DNA of 25,921 nt from a virus: positions 1 through 25,921 of the IMG/VR virus record IMGVR_UViG_3300007960_000155, one strand, 5' to 3'. The first letter of the stretch is position 1; each line of letters begins with the position of its first letter. Below the pieces are notes generated by a model. The model worked only from the letters and a program-made list of their open reading frames with translations. It made no database searches and was not told the origin of the DNA. Made by a program: the position numbers and the translations under genes. Shown piece by piece: positions 4,065 to 25,921 of the stretch.

Positions 4065-4075
4065 ACGTTAATCCT

Positions 4076-5284: not shown

Positions 5285-5444
5285 CTGGGTTCTCTCCGTT
5301 AAACATATTTTGTGCAACTTCTACTCGTTTGCCTGCTAAAATATCAGCGACTTTGTTCGCCATAACAAGACCAAAGGTCTCGTTCGCATCTGTCATGTTG
5401 CCCAATTCTATGTTATTTATTAAGTTTTTAATATCGTCACTCAT
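5256..5444 (-). CDS. Small prohead core protein, gp67-like by position
   Basis: 62 residues lying between the portal gene 20 and the larger core gene, where T4 has gene 67. It has an acidic helical N-terminus (MSDDIKNLINNIELGN), then a helix ending in KRVEVAQNMFNG. This pattern is familiar from small head-core proteins of marine T4-like phages. Its ATG at 5444 overlaps the stop codon of gene 20, and its 3' end overlaps the next gene by 29 bases, so all three are probably coupled. Assignment to gp67 rests on gene order more than on sequence. Confidence 0.7.
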   Translation of the reverse strand: MSDDIKNLINNIELGNMTDANETFGLVMANKVADILAGKRVEVAQNMFNGENPDGEEIQTDS

Positions 5445-7000: not shown

Positions 7001-7021
7001 ACTTTAAGTTCTTTTTATAGT

Positions 7022-7537
7022 TTAACCAGCAACATCATAATTCTGATACTGGAATGTCACCGTAAATTCTTCGATGATATCATTCTGAGCATACTGAAGA
7101 GCAATTTCAGAAAGATTGATCGGGAATGCATCTCTAAGAAGGTACGTCTGAAGAATTTCATCATTGCGGTCGAGGTGCTCGACTGCAAGATCGATCTGAT
7201 AATCAGCAGGTGTTAGAATACCTGTGTTTTCAGTGCGATCATTGATTCCGTTCATCCACTCTTCAATTGGTCTACGAAGGGAGAAGTCAGTATCATTGAC
7301 GATAGTGACTGTCCACGGATCGAAGATACGCTCACCAGCGAGTTTCACTTCGCGACCACGATACTGAACGAGAGTTGGGTTAACATTCGATGCAGGAACC
7401 GCTGCGCCAGTAACCAACAGAGATGCTTCTTGGTTCGGACGCGATGTGACATACGCGGGGAAGTTTAGAAACACTCTGAATTGATTCGGTCTAGCACCAC
7501 CAGCACCAAGTAACCCCTTAAACTTTGAAATATCCAT
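7022..7537 (-). CDS. gp19: Tail tube protein gp19
   Basis: 171 residues (T4: 163). It forms the inner tail tube through which DNA passes, surrounded by the gp18 sheath. The N-terminus MDISKFKGLLGAGGARPNQF, the AGERIFDPWTVTIVNDTDFS segment and the C-terminal EEFTVTFQYQNYDV strand are characteristic. The ATG at 7537 has AGGAGA upstream and a late box at 7560-7567. It lies between sheath gene 18 and portal gene 20, as in T4. Confidence 0.95.
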   Translation of the reverse strand: MDISKFKGLLGAGGARPNQFRVFLNFPAYVTSRPNQEASLLVTGAAVPASNVNPTLVQYRGREVKLAGERIFDPWTVTIVNDTDFSLRRPIEEWMNGINDRTENTGILTPADYQIDLAVEHLDRNDEILQTYLLRDAFPINLSEIALQYAQNDIIEEFTVTFQYQNYDVAG

Positions 7538-7559
7538 TTAGATTTCTCCTAACTTTATC

Positions 7560-7567
7560 TATTTATA
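7560..7567 (-). promoter_or_regulatory. T4-type late promoter box for gene 19
   Basis: The minus strand reads TATAAATA 23 bases upstream of the gp19 start, in the short gap between genes 18 and 19. Confidence 0.7.
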
Positions 7568-7573
7568 GGGTTA

Positions 7574-9334: not shown

Positions 9335-9379
9335 AATTTTCTCCTTGAGTTAAAAATCTTACCTAGATTTTACTACTTT

Positions 9380-9387
9380 TATTTATA
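9380..9387 (-). promoter_or_regulatory. T4-type late promoter box for gene 18
   Basis: The minus strand reads AATTTATAAATA with the exact TATAAATA core, 46 bases upstream of the gp18 start. It lies in the gap after gene 17. Confidence 0.75.
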
Positions 9388-9389
9388 AA

Positions 9390-11015: not shown

Positions 11016-11442
11016 GATCTATAATTTTTTCTCTTTCGCTCTTCAATGCTTTTAGTAAATCCTGTGTGCTTCCAGCAAACACAATATTGTTTTGTGTTTC
11101 TATGTTTTGATTTTTACCATCAGAATCTTTTAATTTTTTCTTTTTTGCCTGTAGATCCAAAAGATCTTTGGCAGTATCGCCAGTAGTTTTGATCAACTGC
11201 CCGACGACTTCATATGCTCGCGGACTATCGCTCGCGAGTGCAACATTGAGCGCACCATCTAATGCTTTTTGACTTTTATCAATCAGATCGTTTAATTTTT
11301 TTCTCGCAACCTGATAGTCGTCTTCGATGTCATCTCCGGTGGAGATAATCTCAGGTTCGAGTATTTCCGGTAAATTCTCTTCTTTTGGAATTAAATTCAT
11401 ATGTGTTCCAAAAATAGAGTCTAGTTTGTCATAATTACTCAT
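11008..11442 (-). CDS. gp16: Small terminase subunit gp16
   Basis: 144 residues from the ATG at 11442 (MSNYDKLDSIF). The longer frame to 11502 overlaps gene 15 by more and has no better ribosome site. The start overlaps the gene 15 stop by 8 bases (ATGAGTAA), mirroring the 16/17 junction. The central part is helical (DYQVARKKLNDLIDKSQKAL, about 64-83), matching the oligomerising core of gp16. The end is Lys-rich and may contact DNA or gp17. The position directly before gene 17 and the length (T4: 164) support the call. It recognises viral DNA and regulates the gp17 motor. Confidence 0.88.
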   Translation of the reverse strand: MSNYDKLDSIFGTHMNLIPKEENLPEILEPEIISTGDDIEDDYQVARKKLNDLIDKSQKALDGALNVALASDSPRAYEVVGQLIKTTGDTAKDLLDLQAKKKKLKDSDGKNQNIETQNNIVFAGSTQDLLKALKSEREKIIDHE

Positions 11443-12232
11443 CTCTAAAAACATCCTCAAATGTCTCGATATAATCCCACTGACCAGTTTCTGGTGTGGC
11501 ATCTGCTGGGTCTGTTGTTACTGTGTATTTCGTGCCGACCTCAGTTGTAATAGCACTGGTAGATGTCAACTTCGGTTCGTCATATGCAGTTGCGATTGCA
11601 GTTCTAATGATACCTTGACGTGTAACAGGACCATAGAAGTTAAGACCCAGCGTGAAAGTCAAATCCCAAATTAAAGTTCTTCGTTGAGTGTAATCGCCAG
11701 TGTAATCATCAGTAAAAGAAACACTGTCCAGATTAATTTTCAAATCGCGCTTAATACCCATTTCTGGAATGTCATTGATAGTAACATTAAAATCTGGATT
11801 GAAAAACGGGAGAATTTGCTCGATTATTTGCAAACCATCATCTTGGTTCTTCGCCATAATGAACATGGAAATAGTCATATCGTATGGTGTGCTAGTAAAC
11901 TGTGTTCTTAGTTGGTTCGCCGAATCACCTTCTCCAACTGCACGATTCTTCGTCAGCAAACTTATCTTTCTAGCAGGACTATAATTTAATCCTGTAATCT
12001 CGAATCCGATTCGCGGAAGTGTTATCGCTGCTTCAGCAGGATTTGCAGTCGAGACTGCATCTATTCTGGCGAGAAATTTTTGTTTCGGTGAATATGACAA
12101 AGGAACACGTAACGATTGAACAATCTCGTCGGATGAGTTCCTGCGCTCGATAACTATGTTGTTAAAAATAGTTCCGAATGCGATGATCGCTTTTCTGATG
12201 TGTTGATGGTAAAACGTTTGTCCCTTAAACAT
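11435..12232 (-). CDS. gp15: Tail completion/sheath stabilising protein gp15
   Basis: 265 residues (T4 gp15: 272). In T4, gp15 caps the end of tube and sheath and joins the tail to the neck. The N-terminus (TFYHQHIRKAIIAFGTIFNN) and the segment MTISMFIMAKNQDDGLQIIE with LPFFNPDFNVTINDIPEMGI are typical of the family. Its ATG overlaps the gene 14 stop (TAATG) with GGAGA upstream, and its end overlaps gene 16. Order 13-14-15-16 is conserved with T4. Confidence 0.92.
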   Translation of the reverse strand: MFKGQTFYHQHIRKAIIAFGTIFNNIVIERRNSSDEIVQSLRVPLSYSPKQKFLARIDAVSTANPAEAAITLPRIGFEITGLNYSPARKISLLTKNRAVGEGDSANQLRTQFTSTPYDMTISMFIMAKNQDDGLQIIEQILPFFNPDFNVTINDIPEMGIKRDLKINLDSVSFTDDYTGDYTQRRTLIWDLTFTLGLNFYGPVTRQGIIRTAIATAYDEPKLTSTSAITTEVGTKYTVTTDPADATPETGQWDYIETFEDVFRDE

Positions 12233-12975
12233 TATAATTCTCCGAACGGATTAATAGAAGTGAAGTCTAGTATACCATCCGCAGTATTTTCATCATCGAA
12301 CTCTTCGTTGTCTGCCTGAGTATCGATTTCAACCACAGAGTAATTTTGCAGAACAATCGCGTCGCCATAACTGGTCAAGATATTATCACCGCTCTGTGTG
12401 GTCACATTGAAATTGAATTCGTCAAGAGTTCTATTATCTTCGATAGCATCAACAGTAGAATCGCCAGTATTGAAACGCTCGCTGCTGTATTCGAAGACTT
12501 CACATGTCATTTTATAGACATAAATTTTTCCAAGTTGATAAAATGGATTCAAGAAGTCGACATATTTAATTTCGAAGTATGTTCCTGTCTTAGGAAAGAA
12601 CAGAAGATCACCCTCGGCAGGTCTCTCTGCCAATTGTAATGTGTCTGTTTGGTTTGCAACACCCTCTTCCCATCTTCTTTTAGAAACTACGAAAGTTGCT
12701 TGCGCTCTAAACTCGAACCCGAACTTAGTGAATAGATCACCTTCCCCTGCAAATCCATCCACATCCTCAAGATACATTTCGATCGGATAGAATTGATCAA
12801 AATAAGAAAGTGGATCTTCACCAAGGATAGGATCTTCATCTGCGATAATTCTGGGTAAGTAATAAACATCATGCCCATAGATCTTCATACTCTCGATGAC
12901 CAAATCCTCGACGAGTCTTTGTTCATTAGTAGTACCAGAAGTATTACCAGATTGAAAGTAGAAGTTCGTGGGCAT
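12232..12975 (-). CDS. gp14: Neck protein gp14
   Basis: 247 residues (T4: 256). It is the head-completion and neck protein that works with gp13 to seal the portal and receive the tail. Recognisable segments are VIESMKIYGHDVYYLPR near residue 27, ILGEDPLSYFDQFYPIEMYL around 50-69, and FEFRAQATFVVSKRRWEE near 87. The C-terminus is acidic. It starts 4 bases after gene 13 and overlaps gene 15. Confidence 0.94.
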   Translation of the reverse strand: MPTNFYFQSGNTSGTTNEQRLVEDLVIESMKIYGHDVYYLPRIIADEDPILGEDPLSYFDQFYPIEMYLEDVDGFAGEGDLFTKFGFEFRAQATFVVSKRRWEEGVANQTDTLQLAERPAEGDLLFFPKTGTYFEIKYVDFLNPFYQLGKIYVYKMTCEVFEYSSERFNTGDSTVDAIEDNRTLDEFNFNVTTQSGDNILTSYGDAIVLQNYSVVEIDTQADNEEFDDENTADGILDFTSINPFGEL

Positions 12976-12978
12976 ATC

Positions 12979-13950
12979 TTACCCCACCTGAAAGTCTACA
13001 GGGAGTTCCCGTTTCGATTGCATTTCTTCTTCGATTTGCTGAATTTCTGTAATCGCTTCTTGATATAACTCCATTCCATTTAGAGTTACGCCGCCAGGAA
13101 GTTGAATGCCGGAAAATTTCTTCATGTTCTCACCCCACTGACGTTTAATCAACGCAGTAGCGTATCTCTTTAAGAACATATCGTTGTAGATTTCTGTATA
13201 TGTGTTAGGATCGAGAATACGATAACAATCAAAATAAACGTAGTCGCCAGGATCGAAGACTTCGCGCCAGTTAACATCGATGAAAATTTTATTCATCTTG
13301 CGGTTAAATCTAATAGATCTTTTTCCTGGGAAGAGTTGCTCAAACATTGACATGTGTGTCTTAACTTGTGCATAGTAAATCAGGTCTGTGTTGAGCAAGT
13401 TCCACATATCGTTCTGTCTAAACTGATAGAGCAGATTGAAAATGTTATTGGGATTTTCAGCACCGCTGTTAGCGTTCGAAAAACTAAACATACTTGCAAC
13501 GCCAAGAATACTATCGGTTACTTCAATGTATTCGTTGTCCATGTCGCCAGCAGTATAAAATCCTGTTGTTGCGAGTGTCGTTGTGTGACCTGAAACATCG
13601 CCTGTAATAGTTTCGCTGGCGACCCATGTTCCCGTTGTCTTATCGGTAATAATTGTATTAGAAGATGAAATTTCGACTATCTTAGCAGTCGCTCCTGAAG
13701 TCGATCCTGTGATGTTTTCACCAACTTCGAAACTATTCGCCGTAAATCCAGAAACTTTAACTGTATTGCCTGTTATCTGATGCTTGAGATAAACACGCTC
13801 GACACCATCGAAGTGGTATTCTTGAAAGTATTCCAGCGCATCGTCTATGCGGTCGGAAACTTGATCATCGTCGACGTTGATCTCGATAACTGGGAATCCC
13901 AATCTACGAAAACAATAATCAATTAATCCTTGTCTTGATGCTACTGCCAT
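12979..13950 (-). CDS. gp13: Neck protein gp13, with an inserted beta-rich module
   Basis: 323 residues (T4: 309). The N-terminal core (MAVASRQGLIDYCFRRLGFP, then DDALEYFQEYHFDGVERVYL) and the C-terminal core (MFEQLFPGKRSIRFNRKMNK, then FDPGDYVYFDCYRILDP and IKRQWGENMKKFSGIQLPGG) are clear gp13 features. Between them, residues about 62-130 form a Thr/Ser/Gly-rich stretch with two related motifs: GENITGSTSGATAKIV and SETITGDVSGHTTTL. This stretch looks inserted. The ATG at 13950 has AAGGAAC upstream and a one-mismatch late box 19 bases upstream. It forms the neck with gp14 in T4. Confidence 0.94.
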   Translation of the reverse strand: MAVASRQGLIDYCFRRLGFPVIEINVDDDQVSDRIDDALEYFQEYHFDGVERVYLKHQITGNTVKVSGFTANSFEVGENITGSTSGATAKIVEISSSNTIITDKTTGTWVASETITGDVSGHTTTLATTGFYTAGDMDNEYIEVTDSILGVASMFSFSNANSGAENPNNIFNLLYQFRQNDMWNLLNTDLIYYAQVKTHMSMFEQLFPGKRSIRFNRKMNKIFIDVNWREVFDPGDYVYFDCYRILDPNTYTEIYNDMFLKRYATALIKRQWGENMKKFSGIQLPGGVTLNGMELYQEAITEIQQIEEEMQSKRELPVDFQVG

Positions 13951-13968
13951 ATATGTTCCTTTTATGCA

Positions 13969-13976
13969 TATTTATT
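13969..13976 (-). promoter_or_regulatory. Possible late promoter box before gene 13 (one mismatch)
   Basis: The minus strand reads AATAAATA, one base from TATAAATA, 19 bases upstream of the gp13 start. Spacing fits the other late boxes, but the mismatch and overlap with the end of the preceding gene lower confidence. Confidence 0.35.
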
Positions 13977-14220
13977 ATGCTATCGTGCCAATATCTCTGG
14001 TAGCAGTCGTTGAAGAATCTGTTACCAAACCAAGGTCAACCGTCTCTGGCACTAAGAATAAATCTGCATCGTAACTCAGTAACTGCACTATGGTACCATC
14101 TGTTTTCTTTGAGAACAGTTGTCCATCTGCAAGATTAATTGCAAGTTCGCCTGCTTCTAGATCTCCCGACGAAGGAGCGCCAGAGGTTTCGCTGCGTTTG
14201 GGTTTAACAATCATAACCAT
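13975..14220 (-). CDS. Small fibre- or baseplate-associated protein
   Basis: 81 residues. The segment LEAGELAINLADGQLFSKKT, followed by DGTIVQL, is a pattern often found near the N-terminus of phage fibre and other structural proteins, where it helps anchor the chain. The first ATG shares its A with the stop of the large fibre gene upstream (TGATG); a second ATG 6 bases later is also possible. No ribosome site is obvious, so translation may depend on the upstream gene. The precise role is unknown. Confidence 0.7.
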   Translation of the reverse strand: MVMIVKPKRSETSGAPSSGDLEAGELAINLADGQLFSKKTDGTIVQLLSYDADLFLVPETVDLGLVTDSSTTATRDIGTIA

Positions 14221-16208
14221 CAGTTAAGCAATGTCCCCGAGGCATCATAGATATTAATGCGATAGTATGCACTGGATTGACCATCTAATAAGTCTGAATC
14301 TAATCCTGAACCAGATCCGTCCACTGTTTTAATCGCATCAAGTATATTAGTTGCAGTAAATGATCCACCCAATGAAACTGATGTTCCCGCAATCGTAATT
14401 GCACTGTTCGACAGTTTATCGTTCGCGATTGATCCTGCGAGCATGGTATTAGTTACCGTGCCAGTATCAGTGGTATAAACGCCATTGGTGACTGTGGATG
14501 CATTACCATCCAATGATGCAGTTATTGTTCCCGCCGCAAAATCACCAGATGCATCACGAGCAACTACCTTAGATGCAGTGTTTGCTGATGTTGCATCGAC
14601 TGCGATGGTTGGTGACCAACCTTCACCCGCAGATCCTGTTTTAGTAATATAACTGCCAGCAGTAACATCAGCAACATAATCTCCAGTCGTATCAGTTCCA
14701 AGCGCAACTGAATTTGCTGCAACAGTTGCGGTAAGTGTGACATTCGATGAACCATCTAACGACACAGAACCGGAAAGATCACCACCGAGAGTGATTGATC
14801 TTGCTGTTGTCCACTTGCCGGCAGATGTTGCAGTTGACGCATTGCCCGATAGTGAAGCGGTAATTGTTCCTGCTGCAAAATCACCAGATGCATCACGAGC
14901 AACTACCTTGCTTGCTGTATTTGCGGATGTAGCATCGACTGCAATGGTTGGTGACCAACCTTCACCGGCAGTGCCAGATACTGTGATGTAGTTGCCGGCA
15001 GTTGCACCCGCAACGTAGTCACCTGTTGTATCAGTTCCTAGTGCAACACTATTTGCAGCAACCGTTGCTGTTAAAGTTACGTTTGCCGAACCATCTATCG
15101 ACACGTTACCAGTTAAATCGCCACCAAGCGTAATTGTTCTTGCTGTTGTCCACTTGCCGGCAGAAGTCGCTGTATCTGCATTGCCTGTTACGTTACCAGT
15201 AACATTACCTGTTAAAGCACCTTCGAATGTTCCGGCGACGAATGTCTCGCTACCGACAGTCCATTTATCTGCTGTCTCATCCCAAACGAGTGTCTTATTA
15301 GTCGAAGTACCACGTTCAACTTCAATACCAGCATTCTGAGAAGGTGTTCCTGCTTCGTTGCTGTTGAGGAGAATAATATTGTCGGCGAGATTAATTGTCT
15401 CGGTATTAACTGTTGTTGTTGTACCCGATACCGTCAAGTTTCCACTGACAGTTAAATCGTTGAATGTAACATCAGATGTTGTTCCTACCGCCTGACCGAT
15501 AGAAATTTGCCCATCACTGAGTGCTACACCAGTTCCAGCACTAAAGTGGGCGCGAACATCTGAGGCAGATGGACCAGTGTAAGTGATTACGCCTGTGCTG
15601 TTGTCATATGAAAGAGAACCATCGCCACCGGAATCTGTTACCGATACTGCGGCTCTTGCAAGGGCATCTGTGTATTGAGTAATAGTAGTAGAAATTGCAC
15701 CATCTGTAATGGAAATACCAGTGCTTGCGCTGAAATGAGCGCGAACATCTGAGGCAGATGGACCAGCGTATGTAATGACACCAGTCGAAGAATTATAACT
15801 TAAAGAACCGTCGCCACCACTATCAGTTACACTGATTGCTGCCCTAGCAAGAGAATCAGTATACTGCGTGATTGTTGTTGCGATTGCACCATCTGTAAGA
15901 GTTATACCTGTACCAGCACTAAAATGTGCACGAACTTCTGATGCAGATGGACCAGTGTATGTGAATACCCCTGTGCTGTTGTCATATGTGAAAGAACCAT
16001 CACCACCAGCATCCGTCGCCGATAAATCTGTTAGAGAAATTACGCCCGTAACGTCTGATTCTAGCGCGAGAGGAAACCCTCCTGCAGTCGACCCATCGTG
16101 GACAACAAGAGTATCCTTTGTGATATCAACTGTGACTTCGCCCTCTGCTCCCGTAAAAGTTGAGTGCTCGGAGGTAGTTCCACGTCTAAGTTTTAATACT
16201 GTTGCCAT
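14220..16208 (-). CDS. Modular tail fibre-like protein with two kinds of internal repeat
   Basis: 662 residues. The N-terminus (LKLRRGTT near 6-13, then TLVVHDGSTAGGFPLA at about 33-48) matches the attachment-domain pattern seen at the start of many phage fibres, such as the Mtd N-terminal domain. Three 63-residue repeats follow (about 65-232), each with GGDGSxxY, STGVxTYxGPSAS and VRAHFSA. A VTFNDLTVSGNLTVSG module comes next, then TGNVTGNVTGN, then two 113-residue repeats (348-460 and 461-573) with GKWTTAR and VVARDASGDFAAGTITASL. The end has LDSDLLDGQSSAYY, a common fibre C-terminal motif. Expected to be a trimeric receptor-binding or long-fibre subunit. The ATG at 16208 has GAGGA 8 bases upstream. 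Confidence 0.8.
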   Translation of the reverse strand: MATVLKLRRGTTSEHSTFTGAEGEVTVDITKDTLVVHDGSTAGGFPLALESDVTGVISLTDLSATDAGGDGSFTYDNSTGVFTYTGPSASEVRAHFSAGTGITLTDGAIATTITQYTDSLARAAISVTDSGGDGSLSYNSSTGVITYAGPSASDVRAHFSASTGISITDGAISTTITQYTDALARAAVSVTDSGGDGSLSYDNSTGVITYTGPSASDVRAHFSAGTGVALSDGQISIGQAVGTTSDVTFNDLTVSGNLTVSGTTTTVNTETINLADNIILLNSNEAGTPSQNAGIEVERGTSTNKTLVWDETADKWTVGSETFVAGTFEGALTGNVTGNVTGNADTATSAGKWTTARTITLGGDLTGNVSIDGSANVTLTATVAANSVALGTDTTGDYVAGATAGNYITVSGTAGEGWSPTIAVDATSANTASKVVARDASGDFAAGTITASLSGNASTATSAGKWTTARSITLGGDLSGSVSLDGSSNVTLTATVAANSVALGTDTTGDYVADVTAGSYITKTGSAGEGWSPTIAVDATSANTASKVVARDASGDFAAGTITASLDGNASTVTNGVYTTDTGTVTNTMLAGSIANDKLSNSAITIAGTSVSLGGSFTATNILDAIKTVDGSGSGLDSDLLDGQSSAYYRINIYDASGTLLN
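14490..15167 (-). repeat. Two 113-codon repeats inside the fibre gene
   Basis: Residues 348-460 and 461-573 are near copies (339-bp period). Each runs from SAGKWTTAR through LGGDL, VALGTDTTGDYVA and AGEGWSPTIAVDATSANTAS to GTITASL. DNA copies differ at many third codon positions, so the duplication is not very recent. Confidence 0.85.
15513..16016 (-). repeat. Three 63-codon repeats inside the fibre gene
   Basis: Units begin with TDAGGDGS or TDSGGDGS at residues 65, 128 and 191 and end near TDGAI/SDGQI. Period is 189 bp. Synonymous differences between copies indicate selection on the protein. Confidence 0.85.
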
Positions 16209-16549: not shown

Positions 16550-17848
16550 TCAGTATGTGCCACCGTCAATTACGTTTGTCCAATCAGGAGTACCACTGTT
16601 TGAGTACAGGAAGTAACCATCGGTACCAGCAGCAGTTGCCTGCAGTGCGCCAGTTCCGTTACCATAAATGATACCATTCGAAGTAAAGGTGCTGGCACCA
16701 GTACCACCGTCTGCAACTGCGATATCAGTCGCAAGACCCGAGACAGTTCCACCTGTTAAGTTACCTTCGATGTTCGCGACGAGAGATGCAACTGCATATC
16801 CAGTTCCTGAAGTGTCAACTGTGGTTGACGGAGCAGATTGAAGGTCTTTGAACAGTCTAAACTTACCGTCTGATGCGTCGCGGAAAAGACCAGCATAGAG
16901 GTCTTGTGAACCCGATGTATCATACAGACCGTAGAAACCGATGTCAACTGCGTCAGTCGAACTGTTTCCGTTGGCGAGAATGATCAGAGGATCTTCAACA
17001 GTAAGTGTAGCAGTGTTTACGGTGGTAGTATCGCCGCTAACTGTTAGATCGCCAGACACAGTAAGGTTGTTAAAGGTCACGTTGTCAGTTGTGCCGACTG
17101 CCTGCCCGATATCGAATGTAATTTCGTTTGCACCAACAGTTGTCGCAACACCAGTGCCGCCAGTAAAGGTAATAGTTTCACCACCAGCAACAGTATCTGT
17201 TGATCCAGTATCAGCAGCAATGTCGAACGATGTAGAGATCGCTTGGGTTGAAACTGCTGTTACTAGACCCTTTGCGTTTACTGTAATAACAGGAACTGCT
17301 GTGGTTGAACCGAAAGAACCTACATCAGAGTTAACTGTCGCAAGAGTGCCTGTTCCAGTAACATTTCCTGTACCGTCGAACGAACCTGATGTATATGCCA
17401 AGTCGCCTGTGATTGCAATAGTACGACCAGTTGCCAGCGCAGTTGCTGTATCTGCATTACCAGTAACATTACCTGTTACGTTTCCGGTTACGTTTCCGGT
17501 TACGTTACCAGTAACATCACCAGTTAGATCGCCAGTTACGTTACCTGTTACGTTACCTGTTAGGGCCGCAGTGATTGTTCCTGCTGAAAAATTACCCGAA
17601 GCATCACGCTCGACGATCGTGCTTGCTGTGTTTGAATCTGTCGCGGCATCAATCGCATCGGTATAAAACTTACCGCCGATCGCATGAATTACTGGATTCG
17701 AACCGCTATCGACTGACTCGATGTAAAGTTTTGCGCCTACGCCATCATTAGATGCGTCTTGCGAGTATGCCAATTCTGCTTCGACCAGATCTGATGTACC
17801 TGGAGCAGCCGAACCAGAACTTCTTTTAATTTGAATAATAGTTGCCAT
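16550..17848 (-). CDS. Tail fibre-like protein with TGNV tetrapeptide repeats
   Basis: 432 residues. The N-terminus (MATIIQIKRSSGSAAPGTSD, then LVEAELAYSQD) is the short anchoring pattern seen in marine phage fibres. Residues about 97-131 are nine tetrapeptides of the form TG(N/D)(V/L). The later part shares modules with the 14220-16208 gene: (V/I)GTTxxVTFNxLTVSG and VxRDASGxFxAGTITA. The C-terminus ends NVIDGGTY, and the adjacent 71-residue protein also ends in IDGGTY. A GAGAGGA ribosome site lies about 12 bases before the ATG at 17848, with an A-rich spacer. Likely a structural fibre or fibre-connector; the receptor is unknown. Confidence 0.78.
   Translation of the reverse strand: MATIIQIKRSSGSAAPGTSDLVEAELAYSQDASNDGVGAKLYIESVDSGSNPVIHAIGGKFYTDAIDAATDSNTASTIVERDASGNFSAGTITAALTGNVTGNVTGDLTGDVTGNVTGNVTGNVTGNVTGNADTATALATGRTIAITGDLAYTSGSFDGTGNVTGTGTLATVNSDVGSFGSTTAVPVITVNAKGLVTAVSTQAISTSFDIAADTGSTDTVAGGETITFTGGTGVATTVGANEITFDIGQAVGTTDNVTFNNLTVSGDLTVSGDTTTVNTATLTVEDPLIILANGNSSTDAVDIGFYGLYDTSGSQDLYAGLFRDASDGKFRLFKDLQSAPSTTVDTSGTGYAVASLVANIEGNLTGGTVSGLATDIAVADGGTGASTFTSNGIIYGNGTGALQATAAGTDGYFLYSNSGTPDWTNVIDGGTY
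17456..17560 (-). repeat. 12-bp tandem repeat coding TG(N/D)(V/L)
   Basis: Nine 12-bp units; on the plus strand they resemble variants of GTTACGTTACCT and GTTACGTTTCCG. Several adjacent copies are nearly identical, so the array could expand or shrink by slippage without breaking the frame. Confidence 0.85.
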
Positions 17849-18088: not shown

Positions 18089-18417
18089 TACTTAGTAACC
18101 TCCGGATTAATCACTACAATTCCTTCTAAAACTCTAATTGTTTCTTCGTCGCTTGCCGCCTCGATATCGTAAACATACCTTCCTGCTTTAAGAGCAGTTG
18201 TTTGCGCTGCAGTAAGAGATATTGTTATCTCGCCATCCGTTGGTCTTGATGCCGTCGCAGTGAAATTCGTGGACGTGGTCGAATAATATGATTTTCTCAT
18301 CTGTGCGGAGATGGTGTACTCTGTTAGATCTTTAGCATCGTCGTTTTGATCAGATACGAGAACAGATAGCGAAAACGTAGTTCCCTGATCGATGTATATG
18401 TTGCGAACAGTCGCCAT
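18088..18417 (-). CDS. BppU-like small structural protein
   Basis: 109 residues, predicted all-beta. The layout (IDQGTTFSLSVLVSDQN, LTEYTISAQMRKSYYSTT, EITISLTAAQTTALKAGRYV, YDIE, RVLEGIVVINPEVT) resembles the N-terminal domain of baseplate-upper-protein-like phage structural proteins, which dock receptor-binding parts to the tail. It is the first gene of the leftward fibre block. A late promoter box lies at 18450-18457 and the next gene overlaps its stop. Confidence 0.75.
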   Translation of the reverse strand: MATVRNIYIDQGTTFSLSVLVSDQNDDAKDLTEYTISAQMRKSYYSTTSTNFTATASRPTDGEITISLTAAQTTALKAGRYVYDIEAASDEETIRVLEGIVVINPEVTK

Positions 18418-18427
18418 CTTCTTCCCT

Positions 18428-18435
18428 TATAAATT
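18428..18435 (+). promoter_or_regulatory. Possible late promoter box for the plus-strand cluster
   Basis: The plus strand reads TATAAATT, one base from TATAAATA, 38 bases before the ATG at 18473. It is the best candidate start signal in the short gap before the plus-strand genes, but is only a one-mismatch match. Confidence 0.4.
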
Positions 18436-18449
18436 AAACTATACGCGAT

Positions 18450-18457
18450 TATTTATA
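18450..18457 (-). promoter_or_regulatory. T4-type late promoter box for the fibre block
   Basis: The minus strand reads TATAAATA exactly, 33 bases upstream of the ATG at 18417. It faces the plus-strand box at 18428-18435. Confidence 0.65.
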
Positions 18458-18472
18458 AAAACTGGAGTGCTG

Positions 18473-19165
18473 ATGAGAAGCATTTTAACTCTAAAATATG
18501 GTGAGAAGTATAGTTCTGAGCACGTAAACAAGATAGCAGAACAAACAAAATACCAGTATAATTATTTTTGCATAACAGACAACGCACAAGGTTTAGACTC
18601 AAGAATAACCCCAATACCTATCCCCGAGGAAGCAGAGGGTCATTGGTTGAAGATCTGGATGTATAATCTTAACTATTTAGGGGATGTTCTATACTTAGAT
18701 TTAGATGTTTCTATTCAAAAAGATATAGACCATTTATGGAATTATATTGACGAAACCCCAACAATAGTATATACTTTCTGGAAGAACAAAGGATTTCCTG
18801 AATTCATGGGCGACACACATTCTATGCGCTATATGAGCAACTATAACTCAAGTGCTGTGTTGTGGAGATCGGGATCTTCTGCTGCAAAATCTATCTGGGA
18901 GACATTTTATGAACACTCAGATTATTATCAAACCAAATATTGGGGTGATGATAGATTTCTTTGGCACGAGGATATAGAACTGAATACTTTTCCGAAAGGC
19001 GAATTTTATTCATTCGTGTATGGTGCTGATTACTATGGGGTCGATGACGATAATAAATCGTTCAAGTATAGACCTGATTACACTATAGCATTGCTGAATG
19101 GATTGGATCAGTTTCCTGGAGCAGATAAAAAATATGACGAATTTCGTATGCATCAAGTGGGGTGA
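18473..19165 (+). CDS. Glycosyltransferase-like protein, copy 1 of 4
   Basis: 230 residues from the ATG at 18473, which has GGAG about 5 bases upstream; the frame is open further upstream but lacks a ribosome site. The N-terminus MRSILTLKYGEKYSSEHVNK fits the family pattern K(W/Y)GxKYxxxxVN. An LYLDLDVSIQ segment gives a DxD-like pair at Asp76/Asp78, the usual nucleotide-sugar/metal motif of GT-A glycosyltransferases. The end has FKYRPDYTIALLNGLDQFPG, also shared by its neighbours. It is the most divergent of the four at the first motif (KYG rather than KWG). Donor and acceptor are unknown. Its end overlaps the next gene by 32 bases. Confidence 0.75.
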   Translation: MRSILTLKYGEKYSSEHVNKIAEQTKYQYNYFCITDNAQGLDSRITPIPIPEEAEGHWLKIWMYNLNYLGDVLYLDLDVSIQKDIDHLWNYIDETPTIVYTFWKNKGFPEFMGDTHSMRYMSNYNSSAVLWRSGSSAAKSIWETFYEHSDYYQTKYWGDDRFLWHEDIELNTFPKGEFYSFVYGADYYGVDDDNKSFKYRPDYTIALLNGLDQFPGADKKYDEFRMHQVG

Positions 19166-19883
19166 CAAATACCCCGCGAAGTATGTGAATAACCTATACA
19201 ACATGGTAAAGAGAAACTATAAGAAGGAATTTACGTTCACTTGTTATACTGATGACTCGACCGACATAATTTGTGACACTGCTCCGATCCCTGATGATGG
19301 ATTGCTTCATCCAAAATACTATTTTGGAAAAGAAAATTTTTGTTTCGATCGTGCCAAGTTTCTGATATTCAATTCTAAAGAATGGTTAGGATACAAAGGT
19401 AACTGGTGTTACTTAGATCTTGATGTGGTCATCCAAGAAGACATAACAGAGATTGAAACTCTCTCACAGAAACCAAGAATGATATATTGCAGATGGCAAC
19501 CAGAGTCACAAAAACACGACAGACTTTTTATAGAGATTCGCGGAACATTCTACAATTCTAGTGTTACTATGTGGCCTGATGATTCGACGAAGCACATCTA
19601 TGAAGATGTTTTACAAAATTCTGAGGCAGTTTTCAAAACATACTTCAAAGGTAGCGACAACTATCACTACTGGAGGCAGAGAAAGTTCTGGAATGATGTA
19701 CCAGGAGGTTGGATTTATTCTTGGAATAGAGGTAAACACTTAGATGACCTAGAACCTTTTAAATTCAGACCTGATGCCAAGATATGCCTATTCAATACCG
19801 ATAATGTGCCGCATCCATCTGCCAAGAAGTTCTTAGAACTTGCTGATTGTAAAGACGAGAATATAGTTAGGTTGTGGCAATGA
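19134..19883 (+). CDS. Glycosyltransferase-like protein, copy 2 of 4
   Basis: 249 residues from the ATG at 19134 (MTNFVCIKWGDKYPAKYVNN), inside the end of copy 1. The DxD-like motif is in WCYLDLDVVIQED (Asp95/Asp97). The C-terminal motif FKFRPDAKICLFNTDNVPHP matches the family. A conserved middle piece (FYNSSVTMWPDD) probably lines the acceptor side. No signal peptide or membrane segment is seen, so it should act in the cytoplasm. The stop is shared with the next start (ATGA). Confidence 0.77.
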   Translation: MTNFVCIKWGDKYPAKYVNNLYNMVKRNYKKEFTFTCYTDDSTDIICDTAPIPDDGLLHPKYYFGKENFCFDRAKFLIFNSKEWLGYKGNWCYLDLDVVIQEDITEIETLSQKPRMIYCRWQPESQKHDRLFIEIRGTFYNSSVTMWPDDSTKHIYEDVLQNSEAVFKTYFKGSDNYHYWRQRKFWNDVPGGWIYSWNRGKHLDDLEPFKFRPDAKICLFNTDNVPHPSAKKFLELADCKDENIVRLWQ

Positions 19884-20698
19884 GAGTAAACTACATTTGC
19901 TGTAAATGGGGAACCAAATACTCCACCGATTTCGTCAACCGTTTATATCGAATGGCAAAGAAGCATACCCCAGAACGTTTCGAGTTTCATTTTTATTGCT
20001 ATACGGACAACAGTGAAGGTTTTGAAGATGAAATCAAAGTCATCGACTTCCCAGACATCCCAGATATCCACCCGAAATACTGGTTCGGATCAGACGATTT
20101 CAAATATGGTATGGCCCGTTGCTGGGATCGACCCAAGACCTTTATCTTCAACACCCACAACTTCGCAGAAGATAAACCAACTGGCAGATTTGTATTCTTC
20201 GATCTGGATGTAATCATTCAGAACGACCTGTCGCCGATTATCACATATGATTTTGAGAATCCGACCAAATTGCGTTCTTGGTGGCAAGATCCTCGACCTA
20301 TGAAGTCTAGAAACTTCAAGTTGGCACATGGTGCATACACGAATGGTAGTTGCATGGTTTGGTCAGATGATCAAACGGAGTGTATCTGGAATGATGTTTT
20401 GGAACACCAAGAAAGGATCTGGTTCACATTTACTGATGGAACAGACAACTATCATAGTTGGAGGTGGGGTGAATTCAGCAACACACCTCTATGGAAGCAC
20501 TTTCCAAGCACCTTTGCATATTCATATAATAGAGGTCGCGACTGGGATTCTGGTGACTTAGAGGTCGCTAAATATAGAAAGAACTGTATTCTATGTGTCT
20601 TCAACGTAGACTTGTTACCATTTGAAGATAACCGCAGAGGCAAAGTGAAACAAGAATCGTTGGTTGATCCAGATCTTTTACAACATTGGAATGTATGA
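19880..20698 (+). CDS. Glycosyltransferase-like protein, copy 3 of 4
   Basis: 272 residues from the ATG at 19880, in a four-base ATGA overlap with copy 2; a GTG 6 bases earlier is also in frame. The N-terminus reads YICCKWGTKYSTDFVNRLY. The DxD-like motif is in FVFFDLDVIIQND (Asp108/Asp110), followed by GAYTNGSCMVWSDDQ, TDNYHSWRWGEF and YSYNRGRDW, all with counterparts in copy 2. It is closest in layout to copy 2. Its end overlaps copy 4 by four bases. Confidence 0.77.
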   Translation: MRVNYICCKWGTKYSTDFVNRLYRMAKKHTPERFEFHFYCYTDNSEGFEDEIKVIDFPDIPDIHPKYWFGSDDFKYGMARCWDRPKTFIFNTHNFAEDKPTGRFVFFDLDVIIQNDLSPIITYDFENPTKLRSWWQDPRPMKSRNFKLAHGAYTNGSCMVWSDDQTECIWNDVLEHQERIWFTFTDGTDNYHSWRWGEFSNTPLWKHFPSTFAYSYNRGRDWDSGDLEVAKYRKNCILCVFNVDLLPFEDNRRGKVKQESLVDPDLLQHWNV

Positions 20699-21381
20699 TG
20701 ATTAATATCTATACTGTGAAATGGGGGACCAAATATGGTTCCAAGTATGTAAATCGTCTCTTAGAAGATTGCAAGAAATTCATCACAACCGAGTTTGAAT
20801 TTCATTGCATAACAGAGGATGCTACTGGATTAGATCCTGAGGTCATAGTTATACCCATTCCGGAAGACAATTATTATGAGAAGTGGTGGAACAAGTTATA
20901 TCTGTTTGATCGAAACTTAATTCGTAAACAAGGCGAGAAGTTGTTTTTCGATCTAGACATTACGATACAGAATAACATAGATTGTATCGTCGAACAAGAT
21001 CCGGAAGATGGATTGACGTTTATTCGAACTCACTGGCACAACTTGAACAAAATGAAACTAGACACCAAGGATGTGCCGCACAAGTATACTGAATTAAACT
21101 CGAGTGTTCTCCGGTGGAATGATAAATTAGATATTGATAAAATAACTAAATTCACCAGAGACTACGCAGATCAGATGTTCTATTACTACAGAGGACTAGA
21201 CAACATGTTTGGGCATCAACGCGAACGTCTATTAAAGATAAATTACTTCCCCGACAGTTGGTTTTACAGTTACAACCACGGGTATATGTGGCCTACTGAT
21301 ATTGAGAAGAAGGTGCTCAGAAAAGAACCTTTGATTTGTTTATACGATTCTATGGAAAGACCTGAAGATGTTAAAATATAA
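20695..21381 (+). CDS. Glycosyltransferase-like protein, copy 4 of 4
   Basis: 228 residues from the ATG at 20695, which overlaps the stop of copy 3 (ATGA); the next codon is also ATG. It has INIYTVKWGTKYGSKYVNRL, the DxD-like pair in LFFDLDITIQNN (Asp86/Asp88), an SSVLRWND segment and YSYNHGYMW near the C-terminus. The C-terminal motif is shorter (EPLICLYDSMERPED) than in the other copies. Its 3' end overlaps the methyltransferase-like gene by 14 bases. Confidence 0.75.
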   Translation: MMINIYTVKWGTKYGSKYVNRLLEDCKKFITTEFEFHCITEDATGLDPEVIVIPIPEDNYYEKWWNKLYLFDRNLIRKQGEKLFFDLDITIQNNIDCIVEQDPEDGLTFIRTHWHNLNKMKLDTKDVPHKYTELNSSVLRWNDKLDIDKITKFTRDYADQMFYYYRGLDNMFGHQRERLLKINYFPDSWFYSYNHGYMWPTDIEKKVLRKEPLICLYDSMERPEDVKI

Positions 21382-22024
21382 TTACCTGAACAGTTACCGT
21401 CATTGGGGATTGGGTTTAGAAAAGATCAACCATGAGATGCCATGGAAGCATGAGGATTTTCGAAAGTCTCTCAATCCCAATTCTATGGACGCTGCAATAT
21501 GGATGGTGGAAAGACTTCAAAGGCACGTAGACCTGAACAAAAAACAAGAAATTATAATTCTAAATTCTTGGTTGGGGTTTCCCCTCGTCCCGCTTCTTTG
21601 TGAGAATTTAAATGTCAAAAAATTAACTCTAATTGATATTGACAATGATGCTCTCGAGTTGTCGAAGGTATTCAACAAACACTATTCTGACAGCGGGATC
21701 GAATTAAACCATCTCAACTGGGATGTGCCTTTTGCTTACCACGATATTAATGCTCTTCCAGCAGATATCGTTATTTCTGTTTCGTGTGAGGCGATGTACC
21801 CATTGAAGAATCTGACTACCGCAAACAAAGATTGCATCTTTGCTTGTCAATCTTCGACAGTATTTCGTGAGATGTATGGGATAAATTGCGTCCCGACTAT
21901 CGAAGCACACATTGAAAACGTAGGTGTTAAGGATGTGTTTTATTCCGGTTCTATTACGCAATCATATTGGTCTTGGGAAGGCATGGTTGACTTCGATAGA
22001 TTTATGGTTATTGGTAAGAAGTAA
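21368..22024 (+). CDS. Methyltransferase-like Rossmann protein
   Basis: 218 residues. IIILNSWLGFPLVPLL (62-77) resembles the glycine-containing SAM-binding loop after strand 1, and KKLTLIDIDNDALELSK (84-100) resembles strand 2 with its acidic residue. An ADIVISVSCEAMYPL stretch near the strand 4 position follows. This suggests a class I SAM-dependent methyltransferase, but the loop is not a perfect GxGxG and no target motif such as DPPY or NPPY is seen. It may methylate a sugar made or attached by the neighbouring transferases. It ends one base before the convergent oxygenase gene. Confidence 0.55.
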   Translation: MLKYNYLNSYRHWGLGLEKINHEMPWKHEDFRKSLNPNSMDAAIWMVERLQRHVDLNKKQEIIILNSWLGFPLVPLLCENLNVKKLTLIDIDNDALELSKVFNKHYSDSGIELNHLNWDVPFAYHDINALPADIVISVSCEAMYPLKNLTTANKDCIFACQSSTVFREMYGINCVPTIEAHIENVGVKDVFYSGSITQSYWSWEGMVDFDRFMVIGKK

Positions 22025-22025
22025 A

Positions 22026-22721
22026 TTAATCGGGATATAATTTACCAAAGTGTGACGCATCTTTTCCTGAGATATCTTCGATCATACTTTGCCAGATATC
22101 GAGGTGAGGTACGATATAACCAAAAGTCAATCTCTTTTCAGTATTACCGCAGCAATGGTAAATCATATTACCGCTGTCCTTTTCGGGATATGTTCCGTAA
22201 TACCCAACTTTACATGACCAACCCACTGGATCGGGTAGAGTGAGAATTTCATCATTGACGTAATCATACCATCTAAAGAATCCACCACCTTCGACTGGAT
22301 TATACGTTAAGAGAATATTGTATCCTGTGGCATTATGATTAGTGTGCCAACCCATGAATCCACCAGGAGGATAATACGTATGAACCGCGACGTTTCTAGC
22401 ACCGAGGAATGCGATTAATTCTGAATTTAGTTCCTGTTGCTTGTGATGGTGTTGCGAAGGAAACCATGGTTCGCGATACATCTGACTCATATCTGTTGCG
22501 ACAACGGTCTCTGGGAATCCGATGTGCTTATCGCCTTTTGACCTAATGTGTTCTAAGTATTTTTCATCAGTCGCAGTTTCCCACGTTAAACCGCCTGCAC
22601 GCTTCGCGCGAAATTCTTCTGGACCTGCTAGAATGTCATGATCGTTCTGAGCAAAGAACCACTCAGTATATGGCATCAAGATATCTAACAGTTCATCTGA
22701 AATTGATTCGGTAAACAGCAT
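22026..22721 (-). CDS. Fe(II)/2-oxoglutarate oxygenase-like protein
   Basis: 231 residues. The C-terminal half has the double-stranded beta-helix layout of prolyl-hydroxylase-like dioxygenases: AVHTYYPPGGFMGWHTNHNA (112-131), YNILLTYN, GGGFFRWYD, GWSCKVGYYG, then IYHCCGNTEKRLTFGY (187-202). Candidate residues are His126, His189 and Arg197 (2-oxoglutarate binding). The usual second metal ligand in HxD is Asn here (HTN, 126-128), so activity is uncertain. The ATG at 22721 has AGGA about 9 bases upstream. It follows the minus-strand glycosyltransferase-like gene and may hydroxylate a protein or sugar substrate. Confidence 0.68.
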   Translation of the reverse strand: MLFTESISDELLDILMPYTEWFFAQNDHDILAGPEEFRAKRAGGLTWETATDEKYLEHIRSKGDKHIGFPETVVATDMSQMYREPWFPSQHHHKQQELNSELIAFLGARNVAVHTYYPPGGFMGWHTNHNATGYNILLTYNPVEGGGFFRWYDYVNDEILTLPDPVGWSCKVGYYGTYPEKDSGNMIYHCCGNTEKRLTFGYIVPHLDIWQSMIEDISGKDASHFGKLYPD

Positions 22722-22732
22722 ATAATTTTATC

Positions 22733-23428
22733 CTAGAGTAAATTTTGAGGAATGGTATAGTGGTAGATAATTCTTTCGTGACCCATCAGTTCTTCTTCCT
22801 TATATCCAGACACAAAGTTCCACTTAGCATCTGGATCTGGGAATCTGGCATATTTAACACCAAAGTCAAAAAGATTCAATAATCTCCACATAGTAAAGGT
22901 ATCCCAATATCGTGCCTCTTCAGGATAGTGCATCATATCAAAGTTTTCATCCTGCTGCTTCCAATATTCGTCATACCATGCACGCATTAATTTTAAAGTT
23001 CTTTCATTACTTCTATATAGAAATAATCCGCAATGCTCAGTCATCTCTTCAGTTTCTGAAAGCATGGTAATCTTAGCATTATAAGGTCTATTAGCAGTAA
23101 ATAGAATGTCAACATCTTCAGGAATTTGATCCCAAACAGTTTGAATATCCTCGTGCTCGATTTCAGTATCAGCATCAACATACACGGTTAAGTCGTATGG
23201 GGTTTGGTCTAGTGCCCACAACTTCGCCCTTCTGTCGTTAGGAACATTTTCAGTTACGATGTTGTCAAAAATATCATAATCTTCTTCTTTGATCCAATCC
23301 GGATTGCCGCAGAATAATGTAATTTTAGCATCCGGATAATAATCTTTTAGAGAGATTGCTGAGTTTTTTGCTGCTCTGTAGAATCCTTTGTATCTAGAGA
23401 CAGCATACAAAAATCCATTATTCGACAT
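22733..23428 (-). CDS. Glycosyltransferase-like protein with DAD motif (different family)
   Basis: 231 residues from the ATG at 23428; a GTG at 23434 is an alternative start. It has a GT-A-like first half (GFLYAVSRYKGFYRAAKNSA, KITLFCGNP) and TVYVDADTEI with the DxD pair Asp85/Asp87. It then has MTEHCGLFLYRSN and an aromatic-rich C-terminus. It lacks the KWGxKY motif of the four plus-strand copies, so it belongs to another branch. It overlaps the upstream coiled-coil gene and lies 11 bases before the oxygenase gene, which suggests one transcript from the sigma70-type promoter. Donor and acceptor are unknown. Confidence 0.65.
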   Translation of the reverse strand: MSNNGFLYAVSRYKGFYRAAKNSAISLKDYYPDAKITLFCGNPDWIKEEDYDIFDNIVTENVPNDRRAKLWALDQTPYDLTVYVDADTEIEHEDIQTVWDQIPEDVDILFTANRPYNAKITMLSETEEMTEHCGLFLYRSNERTLKLMRAWYDEYWKQQDENFDMMHYPEEARYWDTFTMWRLLNLFDFGVKYARFPDPDAKWNFVSGYKEEELMGHERIIYHYTIPQNLL

Positions 23429-23861
23429 TAGCACTTTCTTCCGTCATAAGAATAGCAGCAAGAGCAGTGATCTCGATTACGCTCTTTGCTTTACGAATCT
23501 TCGACTTCATTTTTCTGTTGGATGAGTTCTTGATGACATCAATTTCAAACGCATCAAGTTTGGCAGCAAAAAGTTGCTCCTGCTTAACCTTTTCCATGTC
23601 TGCCTTGCGACGATCGTCATTGCGCTTGATCTCTTCGTCGCGCAATTCCTTACGACGATTGGTGTTAGCATCGAGTTGCTCGATGCTGAAATTTTTCAGA
23701 ATTTCTTTATAGTCGCGATTATTACCATCATTCATGATTGATGCAGTAACTCTTTTATCCGTATCAGGATAATAGAATTCTGCGATAATGTGTTCGCGTT
23801 CCTTATTTGCCCAATAAGGATTTTCAATTTTACGATTTGTGATAGGTGAAGATGCCATCAT
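23418..23861 (-). CDS. Small charged coiled-coil protein, unknown function
   Basis: 147 residues starting MMASSPITNRKIENPYWANK. The two initial ATG codons (23861 and 23858) both suit the GGAG ribosome site just upstream. Residues about 10-40 are a conserved-looking beta segment (EHIIAEFYYPDTDKRVTASI). Residues about 53-105 form a highly charged helix, probably a coiled coil. Residues 112-125 are Lys/Arg-rich, and the C-terminus is hydrophobic then acidic. No catalytic motif is seen. It is first behind a sigma70-like promoter, unlike the late genes, so it may be expressed early. Confidence 0.75.
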   Translation of the reverse strand: MMASSPITNRKIENPYWANKEREHIIAEFYYPDTDKRVTASIMNDGNNRDYKEILKNFSIEQLDANTNRRKELRDEEIKRNDDRRKADMEKVKQEQLFAAKLDAFEIDVIKNSSNRKMKSKIRKAKSVIEITALAAILMTEESANVE

Positions 23862-23892
23862 AAGACTCCATAATTAATGTAGCAATACATTA

Positions 23893-23921
23893 TATATACC
23901 GCTTTTTTCTAGTAATGTCAA
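23893..23921 (-). promoter_or_regulatory. Sigma70-like (early type) promoter
   Basis: On the minus strand a perfect TTGACA (-35, 23916-23921) is 17 bases from TATATA (-10, 23893-23898). An overlapping TATAAT with 21-base spacing is also present. Transcription would start about 25 bases before the ATG at 23861. It is the only clear host-type promoter in the window; other promoters are T4 late boxes. Confidence 0.7.
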
Positions 23922-23927
23922 GGGATT

Positions 23928-25921
23928 TTATGCAGTTCGGACCCAAAGTGCTACTGTAGATACTGTTTCTTTGGTTGCTTGGATAGTATCTGCAGTATAT
24001 GTTCCAGTAAATTGTCTGGAATAAGTTCCACTATATTGTTCAGTATATGATCCTGACCACTGACGAGTGAATGCCTGACTGTATCCTCCAGCAAAATCGC
24101 CCGTATATTGTCCACTGTACTGCTTAGTATACAGACCAGTAAATGCACCAGTGTATTGTCCAGTGAATTGATTAGCGAACAATCCAGTATACTGCTGGGA
24201 GAACTGACCCGTATACTGATCAGCATATGTACCAGCAAATGTGCCTTGGTATGTTCCAGCGTAGTCGCCAGCATACAGAGCAGTATACTGGTTCTGATAC
24301 GATCCAGCAAATGTGCCAGTATATGGTGCTGAATATATTCCTGTAAATGAACCAGTATACTGATTTTGGAAGTTACCCTGATAAGTTCCGGCGTATACAC
24401 CTGAGAAAGTTCCGGTATACTGATTCTGGAAGTTACCCTGATAAGTTCCGGCGTAATTTCCTACGTAGTTGCCTGAGAAAGTTCCGGTATACTGATTTTG
24501 GAAGTTACCCTGATAAGTTCCGGCGTATACACCTGAGAAAGTTCCAGTGTATTGATTCTGGAAATTACCCTGATAAGTTCCGGCGTAGTTTCCTACATAA
24601 TTACCAGAGAAAGTTCCGGTATACTGATTCTGGAAGTTACCCTGATATGTGCCAGCATATACGCCAGAGAAAGTTCCGGTGTATTGATTTTGATACGATC
24701 CTTGGTAAGTACCAGCGTAGTTTCCTACATAATTACCAGAGAACGTTCCGGTGTATTGATTCTGGTAAGCACCTGCATATGTTCCAGCATACACACCAGT
24801 ATATGCGCCTGTGAATGAACCAGTATATTGGTTGTTGTATAGACCAGTCCATTGTCTGTTATATTGTCTATCATAGTTACCAGTGAATGCCCCAGTATAT
24901 TGATTCTGATAGTTACCAGTCCATTGTCTGTTATATTGTCTATCATAGTTACCAGTGAATGCCCCAGTATACTGATTCTGATAGTTACCAGTCCATTGTC
25001 TGTTATATTGTCTATCATAGTTACCAGTGTATTGACCTGTCCACTGACGAGTGAATTGCTGGTTGTATGTTCCTGCGTATGAACCAGTATATGATCCGGT
25101 ATAGACTCCAGTCCAAGTTCCGGTATATTGTCTATCATAGTTACCAGCGTATGAACCAGTATATGATCCAGTATATGATCCGGTCCAAGTTCTGGTATAT
25201 TGGTTCTGATATGCCCCAGCGTATGAACCAGTATATGATCCGGTATAGACTCCAGTCCAAGTTCTGGTATATTGGTTCTGATATGCCCCAGCGTATGCAC
25301 CAGTATATGATCCGGTATAGACTCCAGTCCAAGTTCTGGTATATTGGTTCTGATATGTCTCAGGACTTGGAACGCTAGAGAAACCACCGAAAAATGCTAC
25401 GTAAAAACCTGTCCACTGGCGAGTGTACTGTTGATTGTACCCACCCGCATAACCACCAGCATATGCTCCAGCATAAGATCCAGTCCACTGGCGAGTGTAC
25501 TGTTGATTGTACCCACCTGCATAACTGCCAGCATATGCTCCAGCATAAGATCCGGTAAATCCTCCAGTATACTGGTTCTGATATGTGCCTTGGTAGGTTT
25601 CAGCATTAGGACCAGTATACTGGCGAGTATATGACCCTGCCCATTGACGAGTAAACTGTTGGTTGTATGTTTCAGCATTTGGTCCAGTATACTGTCGAGT
25701 GTATGACCCTGCCCACTGACGAGTAAACTGCTGGTTGTATGTTCCTGCGTATACTCCGGTGTAATTACCTGTATACTGACCAGTCCACTGACGAGTGAAT
25801 TGTCGGTTGTATGCACCAGTATAAGTGCCTGAGTATACACCAGTATACTGACCAGTCCACTGACGAGTAAACTGCTGGTTGTATGCGCCAGTATAATTAC
25901 CAGTGTATTGACCTGTCCACT
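23928..25921 (-). CDS. Giant Tyr-Thr-Gly repeat fibre protein, C-terminal 663 residues (partial)
   Basis: One frame stays open from the right edge to the TAA at 23928-23930, so the start lies outside the window. The protein is built from tetrapeptides of the form (Y/F/W)(T/A/S)(G/R)x, with an aromatic residue at every fourth position over about 641 residues. Most of the N-terminal part has a 24-residue higher period with one Trp (for example WTGVYTGSYTGAYAGAYQNQ). The C-terminal part alternates 24- and 20-residue units containing TGTFSG and QNQY. The last 22 residues (TADTIQATKETVSTVALWVR and on) are not repetitive and may be a capping or trimerisation tip. There is no Cys. Similar YTG repeats are known in uncharacterised marine phage structural proteins; a fibre shaft or adhesin is the likely role. 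Several shorter open frames on both strands here are shadows of this gene. Confidence 0.8.
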   Translation of the reverse strand, partial: WTGQYTGNYTGAYNQQFTRQWTGQYTGVYSGTYTGAYNRQFTRQWTGQYTGNYTGVYAGTYNQQFTRQWAGSYTRQYTGPNAETYNQQFTRQWAGSYTRQYTGPNAETYQGTYQNQYTGGFTGSYAGAYAGSYAGGYNQQYTRQWTGSYAGAYAGGYAGGYNQQYTRQWTGFYVAFFGGFSSVPSPETYQNQYTRTWTGVYTGSYTGAYAGAYQNQYTRTWTGVYTGSYTGSYAGAYQNQYTRTWTGSYTGSYTGSYAGNYDRQYTGTWTGVYTGSYTGSYAGTYNQQFTRQWTGQYTGNYDRQYNRQWTGNYQNQYTGAFTGNYDRQYNRQWTGNYQNQYTGAFTGNYDRQYNRQWTGLYNNQYTGSFTGAYTGVYAGTYAGAYQNQYTGTFSGNYVGNYAGTYQGSYQNQYTGTFSGVYAGTYQGNFQNQYTGTFSGNYVGNYAGTYQGNFQNQYTGTFSGVYAGTYQGNFQNQYTGTFSGNYVGNYAGTYQGNFQNQYTGTFSGVYAGTYQGNFQNQYTGSFTGIYSAPYTGTFAGSYQNQYTALYAGDYAGTYQGTFAGTYADQYTGQFSQQYTGLFANQFTGQYTGAFTGLYTKQYSGQYTGDFAGGYSQAFTRQWSGSYTEQYSGTYSRQFTGTYTADTIQATKETVSTVALWVRTA
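23997..25919 (-). repeat. 12-bp/72-bp nested coding repeat array
   Basis: The basic unit is 12 bp (a tetrapeptide). Super-units of 72 bp are visible at, for example, 24849/24921/24993 and 25041/25113/25185/25257/25329 (Trp codons), and again at 25641/25713/25785/25857. In 24360-24720 the pattern changes to 72-bp and 60-bp units alternating (132-bp dimers, about three copies). Confidence 0.9.

Follow-up and report, generated by a model that had tools for sequence, protein, structure and literature searches.

What does a phage build with a protein in which nearly every fourth residue is aromatic? This question is raised by a gene at the right end of the window, by which we denote the whole analysed stretch of DNA, an entire virus record of 25,921 bp. 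The gene (23928..25919, minus strand) ends with a TAA stop codon at 23928-23930 and stays open up to the contig edge, such that 663 aa are visible and the 5' end lies outside the record. An exact sequence search found no contigs overlapping the right edge of the window. In residues 1-642, register-0 positions are Y/F/W in 157 of 161 tetrads, and off-register aromatics amount to 3 of 160. The four non-aromatic tetrads are NAET at 81, NAET at 105, SSVP at 181, and SPET at 185. Position 2 of the tetrad is occupied by T/A/Q/S/N; G (104) or R (22) prevails at position 3, and Q/T/N/S/A at position 4. A preliminary description, made from the letters of the window, had proposed an unbroken minus-strand frame from the right edge encoding a strict aromatic tetrapeptide polymer, and both points are borne out. 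Its remark that the protein contains few Lys and Arg is wrong for Arg: 23 Arg and 2 Lys (25 K/R) occur in 663 aa, and the predicted tryptic peptides comprise 2-44 aa plus one of 244 aa. At the DNA level, TRF reveals 72- and 132-nt units within the gene. Since the tetrad register is maintained through both units and is also kept in protein homologues, the array is not a product of chance.

We assign a probability of roughly 0.75 to the reading that a giant antiparallel beta hairpin, likely a virion fibre, runs out and back here, and that the array comprises its C-arm, its tip and some of its N-arm. On the minus strand of the window, the mirror analysis delimits what is visible of the N-arm, namely its tip-proximal stretch (residues 1-176, 25392..25919), in which the NAET tetrads at residues 81-84 (25668..25679) and 105-108 (25596..25607) are taken as looped out. 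It is followed by the predicted tip FGGFSSVPSPET (residues 177-188, 25356..25391), the presumed counterpart of the relatives' central turn. The assignment is based on the central motif of the relatives, a turn in the structure model and the off-register aromatics; the predicted tip is the centre of the sole stretch that holds them. The C-arm comprises 114 tetrads (residues 189-644, 23988..25355), and the C-tail TIQATKETVSTVALWVRTA together with the stop codon (23928..23987) closes the gene; family alignment and the model of a relative suggest that this tail is a strand returning to the base domain.

By a degenerate-codon scan of IMG/VR combined with an ORF scan, at least 96 array ORFs were collected. 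Nearly all complete members share one layout, a base of approximately 240 aa with three repeats, the tetrad array, and a C-tail of about 19 residues, while array lengths range from 56 to 2,874 residues. The window protein carries the family C-tail TIQATxETVSTVxLWVRTA and shows the further family traits, i.e., an aromatic tetrad array in a single frame and a downstream cassette of genes for a 147-aa, a glycosyltransferase (GT)-like and an oxygenase-like protein. Its probable membership is mainly deduced from C-tail, array and cassette. Among the collected loci, L098 encodes Lys-rich array proteins in tandem (12473-14812 and 3064-12477, both minus strand), one of which has 3,138 aa; the upstream piece (780 aa) contains a Gly-rich stretch.

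Neither PHROGs nor Pfam contains a significant match to the base domain, and the family profile (A2) has no match at E<=1 among PDB chain sequences. With the query used, no relatives of the base domain were identified in bacterial or archaeal genomes, and a search of the accessible literature for the repeat strings retrieved no paper. A tblastn search for the counterpart of a complete relative identified just one of 50,697 named phage records. Two further tblastn matches were rejected, both in records that the complete relative does not match: the one in S-RIM2 is a structural protein of GNVTG type that lacks the base domain, and the one in Vibrio phage F23s1 is short and located at joined record ends. 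Likewise, the Pfam family Gly-zipper_YMGG (PF13441) scored above the cut-off and was rejected, as the hit reflects low-complexity Y/G spacing in array pieces; it consists of short matches inside the array and not of a single glycine-zipper domain. The family is abundant and derives from T4-like phages; it is common in environmental viromes and nearly absent among named phages.

The arrays are mirror-symmetric. Among the members with just one irregular aromatic-to-aromatic link, which span 10 to 80 links, it is the exact middle link in 19 of 20. The exception, L102, has an aromatic inside the turn and is symmetric when tetrads are counted. Some long members have nearly equal arms as well: in L016, a 106-residue centre separates arms of 464 and 460 residues (464|106|460), and in L090, a 91-residue centre separates arms of 512 and 504 residues (512|91|504). 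In a few members, e.g., L085 and L025, equal arms were not found by the parser used.

The symmetry extends to residue identity. With the middle taken as the turn, F/W versus Y covaries across the arms at a single offset, with a mutual information of 0.57 bits compared to at most 0.04 at all others. The cross-mirror pairs comprise 43 F/W-F/W, 186 Y-Y and 5 mismatches, whereas shuffling within proteins yields 15.3±2.6 F/W-F/W pairs (maximum 26 in 5,000) and rotation a maximum of 31. When the arms of L090 (about 126 aromatics each) are mirror-aligned, 43 F/W matches face 4 mismatches, and the mirror score of 101.7 compares to 25.9±6.5 for shuffled arms; parallel order scores 29.5, no better than shuffled. 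In all these comparisons, related proteins were counted singly, such that the trials are not independent; arm lengths nonetheless vary widely among members. Because neither direct nor inverted duplication of DNA can create mirror order, these observations indicate selection for pairing.

A second rule concerns two-residue insertions (aromatic spacing 6), which are frequent among members and which we call bulges. In 19 of 20 bulge-bearing proteins, bulges are equal in number on both arms and paired over one axis. All 96 mirror-paired bulges of these 19 proteins conform to the rule, 70 with P/K opposite T/S and 26 with SR opposite SR. For an out-of-sample test, new arrays were collected via the neighbouring GT gene, and the axis was preset at array length minus 4 (minus 8 for SR); these members are related to the first set and hence out of sample without being phylogenetically independent. 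The preset-axis rule held in most new regular arrays. Mirroring was complete in L133_7221 (16/16), in L130_7549 (14/14), in L138, L156_7744 and L129_2730 (10/10 each), and in L146_2528 and L160_7905 (8/8 each). Over the second sample as a whole, 192 of 422 bulges obey the fixed axis. Of the 96 pairs in this second sample, 12 are T/S-T/S, every one in upstream copies, and tandem upstream copies are mostly irregular and do not follow the simple rule. The rule also fails in a subfamily with TR/SR bulges (L167, L170, L171, L173, L180, L181, L184, L185, L186, and L191). In the two members of this subfamily that were inspected, aromatic stands opposite aromatic over much of the length on the same axis; perhaps the subfamily uses another register code. 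The mirror symmetry of the arrays is the new point of this study.

For the window protein itself, whose N-arm is incomplete, the mirror match is supportive, not decisive. With both NAET tetrads looped out by hand, the offset of the relatives gives 7 F/W-F/W matches and 9 mismatches (shuffle P 0.007), while another, unrelated offset scores 8. A pairing at sum 362 was rejected as one tetrad off, because the tip has 12 residues; sum 366 corresponds to the relatives' register. The hairpin model predicts a window N-arm of about 456-464 residues in all, preceded by a base of about 240 aa. Thus, approximately 1.6 kb of the gene would lie past the contig edge, and the full protein would have about 1,190 aa. 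A straight strand of 456 residues at about 0.33 nm per residue would be an estimated 150 nm long.

Structure models were obtained for a relative and for the visible piece of the window protein. The AlphaFold (AF2) model of the 344-aa relative L017, based on 34 sequences, has a mean pLDDT of 84.5. It shows three alpha/beta repeats and then two strands (234-282 and 285-342) that form one hairpin starting and ending at the third repeat. The base reaches a pLDDT of 85-97 and the array 51-68, and the turn is displaced from the covariation axis by about two residues. Due to the low confidence in the array and this offset, the model supports the topology only. A Foldseek search with the relative's model, a monomer of low array confidence, gave no significant PDB or viral match; the best PDB match (E 0.28) is not gp37. 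When the window piece was folded alone, it formed a hairpin near the tip, with a turn at residues 183-187, where the mirror analysis sets the tip. According to the preliminary description, Tyr and Gly would lie on one face of a beta strand and Thr and the variable residue on the other, and a stacked-aromatic shaft was deemed conceivable. The cross-arm covariation and the relative's model support this part. The array is not a one-way polymer, however; its arrangement as two mirror arms on either side of a central tip, set within the base domain's final repeat, had been missed.

According to the preferred reading, the chain would leave the three-repeat base and run outward as a strand in which every fourth residue is aromatic. 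At the exact midpoint of the array it would turn, forming the tip, and then run back, whereupon the last 19 or so residues would complete the base domain. On one side of the hairpin, aromatic would face aromatic and Gly would face Gly; on the other, Thr would face the variable fourth residue. Matched two-residue bulge pairs would act as paired joints. Most likely, the protein is a virion fibre attached to tail or baseplate and, like other phage fibres, probably oligomeric, with the midpoint tip presumably presented to the host surface.

The strongest competitor is a variant of this reading. The arms may pair between the chains of an oligomer, the N-arm of one with the C-arm of the next, into an intertwined multi-stranded needle. 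The pairing rules do not distinguish cis from trans. Phage fibres usually form trimers, and in T4 gp37, G921 of one chain packs on F970 of another (PMC6957217). We regard this variant as possible but the less probable form, given that the AF2 monomer shows the hairpin in cis.

More distant is a one-way rod, in which the array would form a beta solenoid or a meander of short strands. In the outer N-arm of the window piece, AF2 indeed produced 10-residue strands every 12 residues, i.e., a short-strand meander, although the models disagree with each other and AF2 is unreliable on repeats (PMC11795689). A solenoid does not require a mirror-symmetric sequence, a centred tip or complementary bulges across the arms, and we consider it improbable.

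The gene neighbourhood bears on the location of the protein. The window represents a T4-like block, with portal and major head protein matched in PHROGs and terminase, sheath, tube, neck and protease genes assigned from ORF reading. Directly after the array gene and ahead of the next gene lies a promoter-like element, TTGACA...TATATAAT (23885-23926, minus strand). Three genes follow on the same strand, and together with the array gene at their head they make up a conserved four-gene cassette. The first (23418..23861) encodes a 147-aa protein, a putative fibre chaperone, whose family is found behind the array gene in 69 of 78 loci. The second (22733..23434) encodes a putative GT-A-like glycosyltransferase of 233 aa with an invariant DxD (family in 69/78 loci). 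The third (22026..22721), a protein of 231 aa with invariant H-x-N ... H ... R-x-T, has a family in 64/78 loci and resembles 2OG oxygenases by motif only. Within this family W-H-x-N, H and R-x-T are invariant, with N where 2OG oxygenases are expected to have Asp, and no convincing Pfam or PDB match was obtained. In the 78 loci, the array gene often occurs in two tandem copies; upstream of it, the loci encode a giant protein of phrog_358 type and a virion structural protein (phrog_473), along with short fibre-like genes. The linkage recurs in 72 additional loci, a second sample selected solely by the GT gene: 64 carry the array gene, i.e., all that have enough upstream DNA, while the other eight have fewer than 900 bases ahead of the GT gene. 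Between fibre cassette and neck genes, on the plus strand opposite to the cassette (18392-22024), the window contains four related GT-like genes and a methyltransferase-like gene, conserved across loci as clusters 0 and 5.

Judged by this gene order, the array protein would be part of the virion, the 147-aa protein would help the fibre to fold, and the neighbouring enzymes may modify it. The enzyme-like genes downstream could suit a secreted or intracellular phage protein. Such a role is improbable as well, since in the family the array gene is flanked on one side by structural genes (phrog_358 type, phrog_473 virion structural protein, fibre-like) and on the other by neck genes, and since in phage C48C1 it follows a Phage_tail_APC chaperone. 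Finally, a disordered or gel-like tyrosine-rich polymer, regular from repeat expansion alone, would suit the low complexity, the DNA-level tandem units and the low array pLDDT, but is very improbable, as expansion yields direct and not mirror order, and mirror matches and complementary bulges need selection for pairing.

If the out-and-back hairpin is true, the gene specifies a type of phage fibre for which no family has been described, strand pairing can be read straight from the sequence, and nature supplies a rule for designing beta shafts of great length; the missing part of a gene and the length of a fibre would be predictable from sequence alone. An evolutionary puzzle arises, in that selection has to keep the two arms matched to each other. 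We tentatively go one step further, with somewhat less than even confidence, and suggest a categorically new fibre principle: a single chain would encode both strands of a shaft, several hundred nm long at most, as a protein palindrome in mirror image. Its residues would pair by a code (F/W-F/W, Y-Y, P/K-T/S bulges, SR-SR) somewhat like base pairing, such that the shaft could lengthen only if both arms gained matching pieces.

The following known systems invite comparison. The GN(V/L)TG tetrapeptide structural proteins of cyanophages, e.g., of S-RIM2, likewise contain a period-4 repeat in a phage structural protein, yet an aliphatic V/L replaces the aromatic and the N-terminal region is another one. 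The window has an array of this second kind, GNVTGNVTGDLTGDVTGN, with V/L at the aromatic position, in a fibre-like structural protein (16550-17848, minus strand).

The closest counterpart in a named phage is CDS0201 of C48C1 (OQ984149, Kyanoviridae), a hypothetical protein annotated as a single 10-kb gene, which shares the base domain, aromatic arrays and a C-tail, ETYTLYVRVA. It is followed by related genes for a 153-aa and a GT-like protein, to which the 147-aa and GT-like proteins of the window are 32% and 33% identical, respectively. CDS0201 differs by its length of 3,347 aa, several inserted globular domains and irregular arrays, and is without annotated function. In our collection the same protein is encoded at L003 6315-16358 (plus strand), with globular domains within the arrays and long R-rich stretches (TRTSTRTSTR).

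To the distal needle of the T4 long tail fibre protein gp37 (D10/D11), the family shows no sequence match (profile A2 against PDB chains, E<=1) and no Foldseek fold match. The gp37 needle coordinates iron through His and has about 130 residues, whereas the arms of the array family reach about 500 residues or more and carry aromatic tetrads in mirror order. In gp37, domain D10 (811-881 and 1010-1026) is interrupted by the needle, in which the chain runs out to the receptor-binding tip and back (PMC6957217). For the array family, the AF2 model and the alignment, both of relatives of the window protein, likewise point to a needle inserted in a base domain to which the chain returns, and a topology similar to that of the gp37 needle appears to be the best reading.
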